The notes beneath the pieces were generated by a model. The model was not told the origin of the DNA. It saw nothing but the letters and a program-made list of their open reading frames with translations, and made no database searches. Of a DNA stretch of 64,000 nt, positions 35,907-43,553 are shown piece after piece. The first letter of the stretch is position 1, and each line of letters starts with the position of its first letter. The position numbers and the translations under genes are program-made. Source of the DNA: Bacteroidota bacterium (GTDB taxonomy: Bacteria; Bacteroidota; Bacteroidia; Palsa-965); contig JADBYT010000012.1 of assembly GCA_020402865.1 (NCBI GenBank), positions 1 to 64,000 on the forward strand, read 5' to 3'.

Positions 35907-38369
35907 ATGAAACGCATATACTTTATGGCTATTGCCGTGTACACGCTGTTGTGCTCGGCTGCCATGGCCCAAACCAGCCAAACCATTACCGTTCGCGACC
36001 GCGCCACACTTACACCCGTAAGCAATGCAGCGGTAGAAATACACGCCCCGGCATCTGAGGGAATAAACAATGCCCGCACCTGGCAGCATGCAGGTGTAAC
36101 GGATGTAAAAGGCCAGATCACCATTTCAGTTACGGCTTCGGCCGACAGTGTGCGGTTTACGCATCCGGCCTTTGGCACACAAGGCAATACATTGGCAGCC
36201 GTAACGGCAAACAACGGCCTGATGCTGCTTACCCAGCGGGTTCTGTTGCTTAACGAGTTTGTGTATGCCGCCAACCGCTCCGAAGAACGCAAGGCCGATG
36301 TGCCTTATCAGGTAGGCGTAGTTTCCTCGCGCGATGTAGAACTGGGCAACCCGCAGAACTCCGGCGATATGCTGATGAACTCAGGACAGGTATTTGTGCA
36401 GAAAAGCCAGATGGGCGGAAGCAGCCCGGTGCTGCGCGGCTTTGAAGCCAGCCGCGTACTAATAGTGATTGACGGCGTACGCATGAACAACCTGATTTAC
36501 CGCTCAGGCCATCTGCAGGATGTAATTACCATTGATCCCAACATGCTCGAACGCACAGAAGTGGTGTTCGGGCCTTCGTCGGTAATTTATGGCAGTGATG
36601 CCATGGGCGGAACCATGCACTTTATTACCAAAAAGCCGGTGCTGGGAACCGACAGCGGCATGTTCACTACGGGCAACGGCTTTGTACGTTATTCAACCGC
36701 CAATAACGAACAAACGGCGCACATCGACTTTAACCTCGGCACAAAGCGTTTTGCATCACTCACCAGCATTACCCGCAGCGATTTCGGCGACTTGCGTATG
36801 GGCGCAAACGGTAATCCCTACGACCCGCAATTTGGCTGGTGCAAATACTACGTGGAACGAATCGACGGAAAAGACAGCGTGATGCAAAATACCGATCCGC
36901 TGGTACAGAAATTTACCGGCTATACACAAATTGATGTCACTCAGAAATTCCTGTTCAGGCAAAGCGACAATGTATCGCACCTGCTCAACCTGCAACTTTC
37001 CACCTCATCAGACATTCCGCGTTATGATCGTTTGCAGCAGCTGAGCAACGGACTTCCGCGTTTTGCCGAGTGGTATTACGGACCGCAGAATCGTGTACTG
37101 GCGGCTTACACGCTGCAGCTGAGCAATGGCAACTCGTTTTATGATAATGCCAGTATTACACTTTCTACACAGCGCATTGATCAGGATCGCATTACACGCC
37201 GCAGAAACAGCAATAACCGTATTCGCCAGAATGAAGATGTAAGCATGTTTGCGCTTAATGCTGATTTCAAAAAGCAGATAGGGAAAGAAAATGAGCTGCG
37301 CTATGGAGCAGAGTTGCTTTACAACACTGTACTTTCAACCGCCACCAGCACACACATTGAAACCCTTGCCGAAACTCCGGCCGCCACACGTTATTCGGAT
37401 GGCGATAATTCACAGCTTATGGCTTCGCTGTATGCTTCAAACAGCTGGGAAGTGAGTGAGAAGTTTATTGTGAGTGGCGGTTTGCGTGTGGGTATTGTTA
37501 ACCTTAGTGCGCAATGGAATGATACCACATTCTTCCCCTTTCCTTACACAGAAGTAAAGCAAAACAATTTTGCTCCCAGCGGGAATCTTGGTTTTGTGTG
37601 GATGCCTTCGCAGAAGCTGCGAATCAATATTTTGGGTTCAACCGCTTTCCGCGCGCCCAACATCGACGATTTGTCCAAAGTGTTCGACTCGCAGCCCGGT
37701 ACACTGGTTGTGCCCAATCCAAACCTGAAACCGGAGTTCGCACTGAACGGCGAGTTTGGTATTTCGTGGACCTTTACCGAAGGGGTGCGCCTTGATTTTG
37801 CAGGCTGGTACACGGCCATTACCAATGCCATTGCCGTGCGCGATTTCACCTTTAATGGTGCTGATTCGCTTGTTTTTGACGGCACACCCAGCCGCGTGGT
37901 AGCTGCGCAAAATACCGACCGTGGCTACATTACCGGCTTCAGCAGCGGCATTACGGCAGATTTTAATGATCATTTCTCATTTCGCGGCACGGTAACCTAC
38001 ACCTACGGCAGATATATCGACACTCAACTCGACACTGTAGTTCCGCTCGATCATATTCCGCCGGTGTTTGGACAAAGCGGTCTGGTGTATCACACCAACA
38101 AATTAGAGTGCGAGCTGTTTGCACGCTACAATGGCTGGAAGCATCTTGCCGATTACAGCGCCAGTGGTGAAGATAATTTATCACAGGCCACACCTTATGG
38201 CATGCCGTCCTGGACCACACTTAACTTCCGTGCCGGTCTTCAGCTTAACCGCTGGGTGCGTGTAACCGGTGCCGTTGAGAATATTTTTGATCTCAACTAT
38301 CGCCACTTCGCCTCCGGTATGAGCGCGCCCGGCAGAAACTTTATTGTTGCCGCACGAGTACGATTTTAA
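35907..38369 (+). CDS. TonB-dependent receptor, haem/haemoglobin-receptor type
   Basis: 820 residues. Signal peptide 1-20 (cut after AMAQ). A carboxypeptidase-regulatory-like domain covers about 22-100. The plug follows (about 125-250): SQMGGSSPVLRGFEASRVLIVIDGVRMNN and RTEVVFGPSSVIYGSDAMGG. The barrel contains FRAPNIDD (about 575) and VPNPNLKPE (about 597), the FRAP and NPNL boxes known from HmuR-type haem receptors. The last residues AARVRF close the barrel with a terminal Phe. A haem or haem-protein substrate is therefore likely. A small one-TM gene precedes it and two structured RNA candidates follow it. Confidence 0.9.
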   Translation: MKRIYFMAIAVYTLLCSAAMAQTSQTITVRDRATLTPVSNAAVEIHAPASEGINNARTWQHAGVTDVKGQITISVTASADSVRFTHPAFGTQGNTLAAVTANNGLMLLTQRVLLLNEFVYAANRSEERKADVPYQVGVVSSRDVELGNPQNSGDMLMNSGQVFVQKSQMGGSSPVLRGFEASRVLIVIDGVRMNNLIYRSGHLQDVITIDPNMLERTEVVFGPSSVIYGSDAMGGTMHFITKKPVLGTDSGMFTTGNGFVRYSTANNEQTAHIDFNLGTKRFASLTSITRSDFGDLRMGANGNPYDPQFGWCKYYVERIDGKDSVMQNTDPLVQKFTGYTQIDVTQKFLFRQSDNVSHLLNLQLSTSSDIPRYDRLQQLSNGLPRFAEWYYGPQNRVLAAYTLQLSNGNSFYDNASITLSTQRIDQDRITRRRNSNNRIRQNEDVSMFALNADFKKQIGKENELRYGAELLYNTVLSTATSTHIETLAETPAATRYSDGDNSQLMASLYASNSWEVSEKFIVSGGLRVGIVNLSAQWNDTTFFPFPYTEVKQNNFAPSGNLGFVWMPSQKLRINILGSTAFRAPNIDDLSKVFDSQPGTLVVPNPNLKPEFALNGEFGISWTFTEGVRLDFAGWYTAITNAIAVRDFTFNGADSLVFDGTPSRVVAAQNTDRGYITGFSSGITADFNDHFSFRGTVTYTYGRYIDTQLDTVVPLDHIPPVFGQSGLVYHTNKLECELFARYNGWKHLADYSASGEDNLSQATPYGMPSWTTLNFRAGLQLNRWVRVTGAVENIFDLNYRHFASGMSAPGRNFIVAARVRF

Positions 38370-38520
38370 TCTCTATTCAAATAATTGATTTACAACCAAA
38401 TAAATCATTAAATCAACTTTAATCAAAAAATAGTCCGATCCCGATAAACAAAACATCCACACCCTTGTTTTATATGGGAATTCACCAAGAGATTGTGTGA
38501 AACTCAGGGGTAATACTCAG

Positions 38521-38580
38521 CATCACTTCGTGGTGTGAGTGGTTTGGACAAAACAAGAGCCTAACAGGCTCTTGTTTTGT
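38521..38580 (+). ncRNA. candidate small RNA, copy 1 (hairpin, conserved linker, terminator)
   Basis: First hairpin CATCAC-ttc-GTGGTG (38521-38535), then the linker GAGTGGTTTGG (about 38537-38547), then a perfect 14-bp terminator stem ACAAAACAAGAGCC / GGCTCTTGTTTTGT (38548-38561 and 38567-38580). Copy 2 at 38719 has the same plan. The two terminator stems differ in sequence but keep the pairing, which supports a real RNA structure. The true 5' end and promoter are not identified. No protein frame is plausible. Confidence 0.5.
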
Positions 38581-38718
38581 TTAATACCGGTTCGTACCCA
38601 AATAAAAACGGTTAATCCCCTTTTAATTGTTTTAATTAGGCAAAAGATAACGGATGATACATATTTGCATATCAATTATTGCTACTGGCAAACATAGTTA
38701 GCATAATTGATATTCGAT

Positions 38719-38782
38719 CATCACTTCAGTGGTGAGAGTGGTTTGGGAAAAAACAGGGACGCTAAACGGCGTCCCTGTTTTT
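38719..38782 (+). ncRNA. candidate small RNA, copy 2 (hairpin, conserved linker, terminator)
   Basis: CATCAC-ttca-GTGGTG (38719-38734), then GAGTGGTTTGG, then a perfect 14-bp stem AAAAACAGGGACGC / GCGTCCCTGTTTTT (38749-38762 and 38769-38782). It repeats 38521-38580 over the first 27 bases with only three differences. The 138-base gap between copies is AT-rich with no gene. See the companion entry for the comparison. Confidence 0.5.
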
Positions 38783-38872
38783 ATTTCAGTATGTGCTCCG
38801 CAAAACCTTCAATCTGGCTTCACACAGGCTTAATACAAGTGGCGTAATCTTGCACAACTAAATGATGAATTT

Positions 38873-39097
38873 ATGATGAATGCCTCTTACGCGGGAATTG
38901 CCCGTATTTTCCTGAGCAACGGACAACAACAAACCGGTTTATTGCTGAACGATGTAGAACGTGAAGATGCGTTTGACAACGGCGTACGTTTTGTGCCGTA
39001 CAGCATGCTGAATGCTTTTTTGCAAACGGCTGATGAAACACTTGTAAAAATCCTGGAGCCTTCGCGCGTAACAGGAATTGATTTGTTTCAAAAGTAA
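38873..39097 (+). CDS. small hypothetical protein (74 aa)
   Basis: 74 residues from ATG 38873 (a second ATG follows directly). No signal peptide. The sequence reads like a compact folded protein: GIARIFLSNGQQQTGLLLNDVER, then FVPYSMLNAFLQTADETLVKIL. The start of the message may lie near TAATCTTG (38845-38852), one base off the -7 consensus. Not recognised; similar short proteins in this phylum are usually conserved and uncharacterised. It follows the twin small RNAs and converges with the TerB/DnaJ gene. Confidence 0.5.
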   Translation: MMNASYAGIARIFLSNGQQQTGLLLNDVEREDAFDNGVRFVPYSMLNAFLQTADETLVKILEPSRVTGIDLFQK

Positions 39098-39103
39098 TTA
39101 TCT

Positions 39104-39176
39104 GGTGGTTTCGATAAGCTCAACCACCAGAGATCGTATCGTTGCGTGGTGGTGGCGAAAAACTCAACCACCGGTT
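39104..39176. repeat. two REP-like hairpins
   Basis: CTGGTGGTT-tcgataagctc-AACCACCAG (39104-39132) is followed by a related GTGGTGGT-ggcgaaaaactc-AACCACC unit (about 39146-39175). The sequence tcgataagctcaaccacc resembles the short palindromes that are spread through many Bacteroidota genomes. They lie between two converging genes and may also act as bidirectional terminators or mRNA-stabilising hairpins. Confidence 0.55.
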
Positions 39177-40109: not shown

Positions 40110-43100
40110 TTACTTTTTATTACCTGGCTTGGCCGGCTTTGCGGGAGGCGGAGCAAGCTTTGTCATTATTCCCGAATCAAAAACCTGGTGATCATTGTGA
40201 TACACTTCACGGCGTATAACGGTTCCGTTTTCGTCGTGGTGCAGCACTTCACCATCCAGATCATCCCACAGCCAGTTTTCTACTCGTTTCACCTGACCAT
40301 TTTCGTGGAAGTATCGTTGTTCAAGATGTTTGAAGCCAGCTTTGTAGTTGCGGACCTCTTTGCTTTTGCCATTTTCATAATATACTTTCTGCACACCTTC
40401 ATAATCGCCATACTCGTAATTTTCTTCCTTGTAAACGGCTCCGTTGGCGTAGTATTCTTTCCAGACACCATGCAGGTATCCGTTTTCAAAACTACCCTCA
40501 ATTGATTTCTGGCCGTTGGCAAAGAATGCTTCAATTTTACCATTCCCGTTTCGAATGGGTTTACGCGGCAAAAGATTACCATCGGGACCGTTATAGGTAT
40601 AACCTACCAGCGCACCGGCTTCGTAGTAGCGAATATGTGTAAGCTCACCTTCGGGACTGAAGAAACGATGTTCGCCCCAGGGTTCGCCGTTGCGGTAAAG
40701 GCCTACGCGGCGCAACTTGCCGTTTTCGTAGTAATAATAGCTGGTATCATCTTTTGAATCGAGCACATAGTTTTCTTTGTACTCTAACTGACCGTTTTCA
40801 TAATAGCGTTTGCAGATGCCCTGACGGCTGCCGAGGTGGTAATTGAATTCGGCGCGGAGCTGGCCGTTAAGATGATACGATTTATAAGTGCCTTCATCTT
40901 CACTGTTGCGCATAGGGCGCTCACTCTGAATGCTGCCATCCATGTAATACCCTTTGGAAACACCGGTAATACGGCCGTTCTGATAATTCTGCTCAATGCG
41001 TACCTGTCCGTTTGGATAAGATAAACGCAATTCGCCTTTAAACTGTGTGGAGTCATAACGATATGTGTACACAATGGTGTTTCCGGTGGTGTCATAGAAA
41101 TTGCTGTAACGCATCCAGCCTTCACGTATAAAATTATTTTCCACCAAACGCCCTTTGTTATCGTAGTAATACTGATTGCCATAGTTGCCGCCATTAATGA
41201 AATACTGCTTACCGGTCATCACACCACCTGCGTTATACTCAGTCCATTCCGACTGGCGTTCATCATACTGATACCAGCCTTTGGAGCTGATCTGACCGTT
41301 TGAGTGGAAAAACTTGAAGAAGCCGTGGCGCATGTCTTCCTTGTATTCACCTTTGCTTTCTACGCGGCCGTTGGCGTGGTATGTGGTGGAAGGCCCGTCT
41401 TTCATACCGCGTTTAAATTCATACTTTGATTCGAGCCAGCCGCCCTCTTCGCGGAAGAATTTCCATTCACCTTCGCGCATGTTGTTCACGAGTTCACCTT
41501 CGGCCGCTTTTGATCCGTTGGGGTGATATTCGATTACCGCAAGGCGCTGCCCGGTGAGTTTCTGATTTAGTAACACATCGCCATCTTTAGCGTAATAGCG
41601 CATCTGCTGAATCACACCAACTTTGTAGGTATTTTGGTTGTATTTGATTCCGTCAGCATCATACATAAACAAATCACCATTCAATTTACCGTCTTTTCCA
41701 AAGGTCGCTTCAGTTTCGAGTTTGCCATTACGGTGATACTCTTTCCATGAACCTACACGGTTGCCCTGTGCGGTGTATTCTCCTTCCCGTAGTTTCTCTC
41801 CCGTGCCATAATAGTTTGTCCAGCTACCTGTTTGTACACCATTGGTAAACTGTCCGGAGGTAATCAGTTTGCCGGTTGCTGAATAATCAAGAAACTCACC
41901 GTTTTCTTTATCGTTTTTGAAATTAATTACACGCGACACAGAGCCATCGGCGAAGTATTCCGTTGCTTTACCATCACGCATTCCGTTTTTGTATTCCACT
42001 TCAATACGCAGCGTGCCATCGGCAAAATAGGTTTTCACCTTTCCGTCGTATTTCCCTTTGCTCATGGAGCCTTCTTCGTACTTGGCGCCATTTGAACGGT
42101 AGGTGGTATAGGGCCCGTCCATTTCTCCGTTGGAGTATGTATATCGTTCGCGGATTACGCCGTTATCGAAATATTTTTCCTGTACCCCATTAAGTTTACC
42201 ATTTTCATAATTTTCCTTTGTCCGGATTACGCCATTAATCGGATAATACCAAACCCACTCACCGGTTTCCTTACCCATGCTGTTGTAGCTTCCCTTGCCG
42301 CGCAGCAAACCGTTTCGTTCCTGATAGAACACCCACTCGCCGCGACGTTCAGGAGTTCCGGGGTCTTCTCCTTTTTTCTTCTTACTTGGCTTGGCATTCA
42401 GTTGCTGCTCACGCACTACCGGATCTATTTTACCAATACCAAAAATAATTTTGTTGTCGTGGAAAAGTATATCTACGTTTTCGGTGTTGCTCATTGCCAT
42501 TTTAGCCGGATGGCGAAGATTTTTATCAATAAAATCAGTCGCCCACTTGGCAAATGCCGGAATCTTTTTCTTTTTATTTTTCTTGTATGCTTTTGCTTCT
42601 GCCTTGTCGGCTACGGTGGCAAGCGTGTAGTAAGTATATACTTCGTAGTATCCGTTTTTATACATGTTTACAAAAAACGGCACATAGGTTTGCATAAACC
42701 AGTTTTTCGAATCATCCTCCATCTTCATGCTTTCAAACATGAGCTGGCGCTGCATCACAAACTTGTATTTAAGCGTAGTGAGGTTTTTGTACGCGGGATT
42801 AAGTGCCTTTTTCGATTCGAGCAAATCAACCAGATAATCAAAACACTGATCACCGGCTTCAGAAGAAGAAAGCCGGGCTTCCGGATCTGAATCAAGATTA
42901 CCGCCATACATATCTTCTATCTGAACCACTACTTTGTTGGCACGCTCACTGCTGTTATCCAGCAGCAGATAATATTCGAACGAAAGCAATGCGGGCAAAA
43001 GACGACCCTGCTCCACAAGTGCTTTACCGAGCTGAAAATGACTTGAACGATGATACTGGTTCAGTTCAATTGATTTCTGAAAACAGGTTACTGCATCGGC

Positions 43101-43553
43101 ATATTTCTTCTGCTTCACATAGGTAAGCCCTTTATGGTAGTAGAGGTAAAAGAAATAGGGAAATTTCTCAATGCCTTCGTCGAATGCTTTGTGCGCATCG
43201 TCATACTTAGCCATCTCACGATTCGACTCACCGATATACTGGTAAAAATCGGCCTCAAAACGATTTCTCATTTTCAGCCCTTTCTGCGCGGTAATGAGGC
43301 AGAGGCTGTCGTCGTGATTATCATTGTAGGCCGAAGCGAGACGGAGTATGGCATAGGCGTAGTTCGTATCGTTCGGGTGACATTTTTTGTAATTGGTTAT
43401 GGCTTTTTCGTACTTGCCGGTGAGCTCATAAAACGAGCCCTGGATAAGCAATTCACCGGAAGATGTGTATTCTTCTTCATCAACCTGAGCAAACACAGAC
43501 TGCCAGGAAAACAAAAACGAAAAAACGAGGGTCAGGCGAAAAATCTGATTCAT
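40110..43553 (-). CDS. giant MORN-repeat protein with N-terminal TPRs
   Basis: 1147 residues. Signal peptide 1-22 (cut after VFAQ). Four to five TPRs lie at about 30-215, then a linker with lysine-rich tails (KAYKKNKKKKIP). From about 400 to 1125 there are roughly thirty MORN_2 (YwqK-like) repeats of about 23 residues, pattern YxxNGxxxGxxxxYYxxG, such as NGKLNGVQEKYFDNGVIRE. The C terminus is PPPAKPAKPGNKK. MORN repeats form elongated beta surfaces. A soluble periplasmic or surface scaffold is likely; the N-terminal TPR part suggests binding to a partner. The -7 box TATTTTTG (plus 43613-43620) leaves a leader near 50 bases. Confidence 0.85.
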   Translation of the reverse strand: MNQIFRLTLVFSFLFSWQSVFAQVDEEEYTSSGELLIQGSFYELTGKYEKAITNYKKCHPNDTNYAYAILRLASAYNDNHDDSLCLITAQKGLKMRNRFEADFYQYIGESNREMAKYDDAHKAFDEGIEKFPYFFYLYYHKGLTYVKQKKYADAVTCFQKSIELNQYHRSSHFQLGKALVEQGRLLPALLSFEYYLLLDNSSERANKVVVQIEDMYGGNLDSDPEARLSSSEAGDQCFDYLVDLLESKKALNPAYKNLTTLKYKFVMQRQLMFESMKMEDDSKNWFMQTYVPFFVNMYKNGYYEVYTYYTLATVADKAEAKAYKKNKKKKIPAFAKWATDFIDKNLRHPAKMAMSNTENVDILFHDNKIIFGIGKIDPVVREQQLNAKPSKKKKGEDPGTPERRGEWVFYQERNGLLRGKGSYNSMGKETGEWVWYYPINGVIRTKENYENGKLNGVQEKYFDNGVIRERYTYSNGEMDGPYTTYRSNGAKYEEGSMSKGKYDGKVKTYFADGTLRIEVEYKNGMRDGKATEYFADGSVSRVINFKNDKENGEFLDYSATGKLITSGQFTNGVQTGSWTNYYGTGEKLREGEYTAQGNRVGSWKEYHRNGKLETEATFGKDGKLNGDLFMYDADGIKYNQNTYKVGVIQQMRYYAKDGDVLLNQKLTGQRLAVIEYHPNGSKAAEGELVNNMREGEWKFFREEGGWLESKYEFKRGMKDGPSTTYHANGRVESKGEYKEDMRHGFFKFFHSNGQISSKGWYQYDERQSEWTEYNAGGVMTGKQYFINGGNYGNQYYYDNKGRLVENNFIREGWMRYSNFYDTTGNTIVYTYRYDSTQFKGELRLSYPNGQVRIEQNYQNGRITGVSKGYYMDGSIQSERPMRNSEDEGTYKSYHLNGQLRAEFNYHLGSRQGICKRYYENGQLEYKENYVLDSKDDTSYYYYENGKLRRVGLYRNGEPWGEHRFFSPEGELTHIRYYEAGALVGYTYNGPDGNLLPRKPIRNGNGKIEAFFANGQKSIEGSFENGYLHGVWKEYYANGAVYKEENYEYGDYEGVQKVYYENGKSKEVRNYKAGFKHLEQRYFHENGQVKRVENWLWDDLDGEVLHHDENGTVIRREVYHNDHQVFDSGIMTKLAPPPAKPAKPGNKK

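Follow-up and report, generated by a model that had tools for sequence, protein, structure and literature searches.

A 503-base intergenic gap with two head-and-terminator copies

We analysed a window of 64,000 nucleotides (the whole stretch of DNA under study) from a Bacteroidota genome of 4.89 Mb (G000). On its forward strand, a gene for a TonB-dependent receptor with Pfam Plug and beta-barrel domains (35907-38369) is separated from a conserved 74-aa open reading frame (ORF; 38873-39097) by 503 bases (38370-38872) without a recognisable gene, matching the gap of about 500 bases described in the initial annotation. The receptor, which lies outside the RNA element described below, had been called haem-type. 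This label holds only approximately: the best NCBIfam models, TIGR01786 and TIGR01785, reach 192 bits where their cut-offs stand at 324 and 317, and we refer to the receptor as haem/haemoglobin-like. The 74-aa ORF has no match in Pfam or NCBIfam, and orthologues are found in 6 of the 11 other genomes of the family (G002-G007).

The sequence TAATCTTG at 38845-38852 (forward strand) is likely the -7 box of a promoter that belongs to the 74-aa ORF itself; the Bacteroidota -7 consensus is TAnnTTTG (PMC9723704). Similar boxes (TAATATTG, TAAGTTTG and TATTTTTG) precede the orthologous ORF in G002, G003 and G005, and a TAnnTTG-like box lies directly 5' of the orthologues in relatives both with and without the RNA element. 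Past the ORF, an inverted repeat, CTGGTGGTTTCGATAAGCTCAACCACCAG (39102-39130), sits between this ORF and a convergent DnaJ/TerB gene; it looks like a common intergenic repeat and possibly serves as a terminator for both genes. Further downstream, positions 40110-43553 encode a protein of 1147 aa that carries TPR and MORN_2 repeats.

Within the gap, direct reading of the forward strand recovers the twin copies reported initially, each with a CATCAC-loop-GTGGTG hairpin, a linker and a terminator. The head of copy 1 (38521-38547; 38515-38547 with its lower stem, ACTC/GAGT) consists of CATCAC (38521-38526), the loop TTC, GTGGTG (38530-38535), a T and GAGTGGTTTGG (38537-38547), which ends in the tail GGTTTGG. 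It runs directly into an intrinsic terminator of 15 bp (38548-38580; arms 38548-38562 and 38566-38580) with the loop AAC and a T-rich 3' side. Copy 2, 199 bases away, has the same layout: CATCAC (38719-38724), the loop TTCA, GTGGTG (38729-38734), an A and GAGTGGTTTGG (38736-38746), again ending in GGTTTGG, form a head at 38719-38746 (38712-38746 with its lower stem, ATTC/GAGT), followed by a terminator at 38749-38782 (arms 38749-38762 and 38769-38782). Both terminator stems are perfect, as noted earlier; that of copy 2 has 14 bp, or 15 bp with one G-U pair. The two heads differ only in one loop base and in the single base before GAGTGG. Similarity starts sharply at CATCAC and stops at TTTGG, and both the sequence around the heads and the terminator stems are unrelated between the copies. 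The pair exceeds chance expectation: a 23-mer that covers the hairpin and runs into the linker, with up to three mismatches allowed, is expected 0.05 times per window.

Upstream of copy 1, CTCAGGGGTAAT (38503-38514, forward strand) contains CTCAGGGGTAA, which is identical in 11 of 11 positions in the congener G002, and the full 12-mer matches the congener G006 at 10 of 12. A further block, TTGTYTTATATG...AAGAGAnTG (38465-38502, forward strand), is conserved with G002, where it forms one blastn alignment with the head (E 8e-7); a promoter and a 5' part of the RNA are candidate readings of this block. At 38410-38422, AAATCAACTTTAA is identical (13 of 13) at the matching place of the G002 gap (blastn E 0.005) and may possibly be a regulatory site.

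Distribution within the genome and among relatives

A covariance model of the head, run against the whole 4.89-Mb genome, returned two sites, with E values of 3e-10 and 5e-9 (both sites had been used in building the model); all other matches were at noise level. With two copies in the entire genome, the element does not show the many copies of a REP or other dispersed repeat. The initial annotation had named scattered REP or attenuator copies within genes as evidence against its proposal; a genome-wide search showed none. Other exact GAGTGGTTTGG sites in this genome carry neither hairpin nor terminator and look coding. We screened 1.26 Mb of this genome for terminator-like hairpins; of the 113 recovered, one unrelated case has an adjoining TTTGG (~1%). 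The element also has no match in Rfam release 15, in keeping with the earlier remark that the RNA type was unfamiliar: in the window, only 16S rRNA and a tRNA exceeded the gathering threshold, and a permissive search gave sub-threshold noise.

We found a third close copy in G002 (L022:1563-1597), where it occurs singly between the TonB receptor and the 74-aa ORF. It was first spotted by eye in the syntenic gap, 3' of the receptor homologue, and then scored with the covariance model; this score (1.5e-8) is not independent, because the G002 sequence helped build the model. Blastn of the two gaps, which is independent of the model, gave an E value of 8e-7 with copy 1 and of 3e-5 with copy 2. The G002 copy reads CATCACCCGTGTGGTGGGAGTGGTTTGG plus a terminator, its head almost unchanged from that of G000, and the flanking proteins are 38% (receptor) and 39% (74-aa ORF) identical between the two species. 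The match extends upstream for copy 1 only, through CTCAGGGGTAA and the block ~40 bases further up. Because G002 shares these two features with copy 1 and not with copy 2, copy 1 is likely the orthologue of the G002 copy and copy 2 a duplicate. Just 3' of the G002 terminator, at about L022:1640-1650, lies AGTGGTGAGA (blastn E 0.22, a weak match), which could be what is left of another copy.

The orthologous gap of G006 (L083), beside the same ORF, holds a divergent version, CTCTGGAGTAAT-GCTG..CAGC-GTGGTTTGG-terminator. Its blastn match to our gap is weak (E 0.017); the order and position of the elements are alike. Here the hairpin stem has been replaced in sequence with pairing kept, GTGGTTTGG and the terminator are retained, and the gene in front is unrelated to the receptor, so a position after the receptor is not a constant property of the element. 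A doubtful copy in the congener G003 has the order hairpin-GGATTTGG-terminator and no further sequence similarity; it is only suggestive, because ~1% of terminators adjoin TTTGG by chance. The element is absent at the same spot in G004, G005 and G007.

With the covariance model we searched 12 members of the order, 395 genomes from the class and 396 from the phylum (the samples overlap); nothing credible came up beyond the order. Those weaker matches that were inspected had no terminator behind them and mostly read as coding. A screen for TGGTTTGGNNNAAA plus terminator, covering nearly all sites in the 12 relatives, gave the known loci and a few doubtful ones (for example G011 L105 and G007 L173), and searching at the DNA level with the G006 sequence turned up no additional credible copies. 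Searches of phages and plasmids gave nothing of weight. A head pattern gave only matches attributed to chance in viral contigs and GTDB genomes; the GTDB match was left uninspected, and the GTDB pattern required CACT, so that it would miss the G002 form. Congeners add one clear copy (G002) and one divergent copy (G006), and the element is not widespread.

Predicted fold of the element

Both copies fold far below shuffled sequence (z -6.7 for copy 1 and -6.2 for copy 2), with the terminators contributing most. When its flank is included, copy 1 folds as ACTC-AG-CATCAC-TTC-GTGGTG-T-GAGT, with an additional 4-bp lower stem formed by 38515-38518 and 38537-38540; the counterpart in copy 2 pairs 38712-38715 with 38736-38739. 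The minimum-free-energy fold of the isolated head instead pairs ATCACTT with GAGTGGT. We rejected this pairing, which is broken in G002 and gives way to CATCAC/GTGGTG plus the lower stem once the flank of copy 1 is added. All three close copies retain the T-G mismatch of the CATCAC/GTGGTG repeat, which is a wobble pair in RNA. A strong hairpin lies just 5' of the copy 2 head (38669-38713, forward strand; z -4.28, 0 of 200 shuffles); the 5' hairpin is weak in copy 1 (z -0.9) and in G002 (z -2.0).

The lower stem can pair in every copy: ACTC/GAGT in copy 1, ATTC/GAGT in copy 2, ACTT/GAGT in G002 and GCTG/CAGC in G006. If the G006 stem is aligned to the lower stem, two of its pairs have changed on both sides. 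We regard this covariation as supportive and not proven, because the alignment needs a 2-nt shift, and as thin, because secure copies come from two species. The initial annotation had argued from the terminators, whose stems differ completely while still pairing, that selection acts on structure. Any two intrinsic terminators have stems that differ in sequence and pair. Since every terminator pairs, the unrelated stems prove little and are weak evidence of such selection, although a structured RNA is still the best reading of the locus. Better evidence comes from nucleotide conservation in synteny and from the changed but still paired lower stem.

Possible functions and comparison with known small RNAs

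Two related candidate RNA genes with a common conserved segment, as in twin (sibling) small RNAs, are present at this locus, and we lean towards the reading that it encodes a small non-coding RNA, twice in tandem, that acts in trans as such twins do. Each RNA would be ~70-110 nt long, with a conserved hairpin domain at the 5' end, a GGUUUGG tail that is conserved as well and an intrinsic terminator of its own; the conserved head may mediate pairing or protein binding. Beyond a conserved structured RNA ending at its own terminator, everything proposed here is something we infer, including transcription as a separate RNA, action in trans and a function shared by both copies. No convincing promoter was recognised for either copy, the best candidate being a 9/12 sigma-70-like match for copy 2, and a scan of the gap for Bacteroidota promoter motifs gave 2 sites against a mean of 8.7 in mononucleotide shuffles. 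A screen for targets among 949 start regions (~1.26 Mb, about a quarter of the genome) gave no signal over shuffled seeds.

We considered whether the element is instead a conserved 3'-UTR or terminator module, in which serial terminators end the upstream transcript and the head stabilises the mRNA end or is released as a 3'-UTR-derived RNA. The element lies ~150 bases 3' of the receptor in both G000 and G002, its terminators are strong and it lacks a clear promoter of its own, as such a module would predict. We nonetheless judge this unlikely, if worth serious weight: an ordinary terminator leaves the conserved 27-nt head and CTCAGGGGTAA unexplained, and the head is missing at other terminators of this genome (1.26 Mb screened). 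In G006 the element stands behind an unrelated gene; because it is kept there without the receptor, it is more than a terminator for the receptor gene, and this case disfavours a role bound up with the receptor only. The element goes along with the 74-aa ORF more closely than with the receptor, which would suit a cis-acting leader (an attenuator or riboswitch) whose terminator decides read-through into that ORF. Such a leader is improbable, because both terminators lie upstream of the ORF's promoter-like box, which is also present in relatives without the element; across four copies, antiterminator pairing with a terminator arm never exceeded that in shuffled sequence.

The short head, with its sharp borders and near-identical sequence, would also fit a DNA-level binding site, with the imperfect inverted repeat CATCAC/GTGGTG standing beside ordinary terminators. 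We give this even less credence, given that the terminator is always directly 3' of the head, that the retained T-G mismatch in the three close copies makes sense as an RNA wobble, and that in G006 the inverted repeat differs while the order of hairpin, tail and terminator is kept. Least probable of all is a functionless remnant of a recent duplication or mobile element: it would account for two copies 199 bases apart at a single locus, but not for a head conserved between species more than the flanking proteins, nor for surroundings and terminator stems that are unrelated between the copies.

Returning to the twin small RNA, we tentatively place it in a new, fast-evolving family restricted to a single genus from an order with poor sampling. 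Its head is more conserved than the neighbouring proteins, one species has it in tandem duplicate, and it would work without the RRM protein that partners FopS. FopS, in Bacteroides, has a single-stranded seed and 14 paralogues and is bound by an RRM protein (PMC11697453). Our element resembles FopS and GibS in placing an intrinsic terminator behind a conserved 5' segment, and in occurring in several copies per genome, but it differs in its hairpin head and in having two copies at one locus. As far as the GibS model goes, no match to this family emerged: GibS scored only 17.5 bits in the Rfam search, on the other strand and against a cut-off of 115. No RRM_1 domain (PF00076) was found in the whole G000 genome, while the search did find it in a Bacteroides control genome.

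Small RNAs of Bacteroidota, the phylum to which promoter motif and protein content also point here, are little charted outside a few model genera. The twin RNA would be a small addition, not a new principle; its layout resembles two tandem pairs to which we found no sequence relation (OmrA/OmrB and PrrF1/PrrF2). PrrF1 and PrrF2 are tandem iron-responsive small RNAs of Pseudomonas, 95% identical and found through a Fur site (PMC4211561). Our elements are likewise a tandem pair, adjoining a haem-like receptor in two species; unlike PrrF, they have no established Fur site, share only the head, and occur in G006 without the receptor. The enterobacterial twins OmrA and OmrB are small RNAs that likewise lie in tandem within a single intergenic gap, with a near-identical 5' part and a terminator end. 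That pair is alike in its last 35 nt as well (PMC4211561), whereas our candidates have unrelated terminators; a tandem pair with a common head and unrelated terminators lets one test cleanly which region of a small RNA selection acts on.
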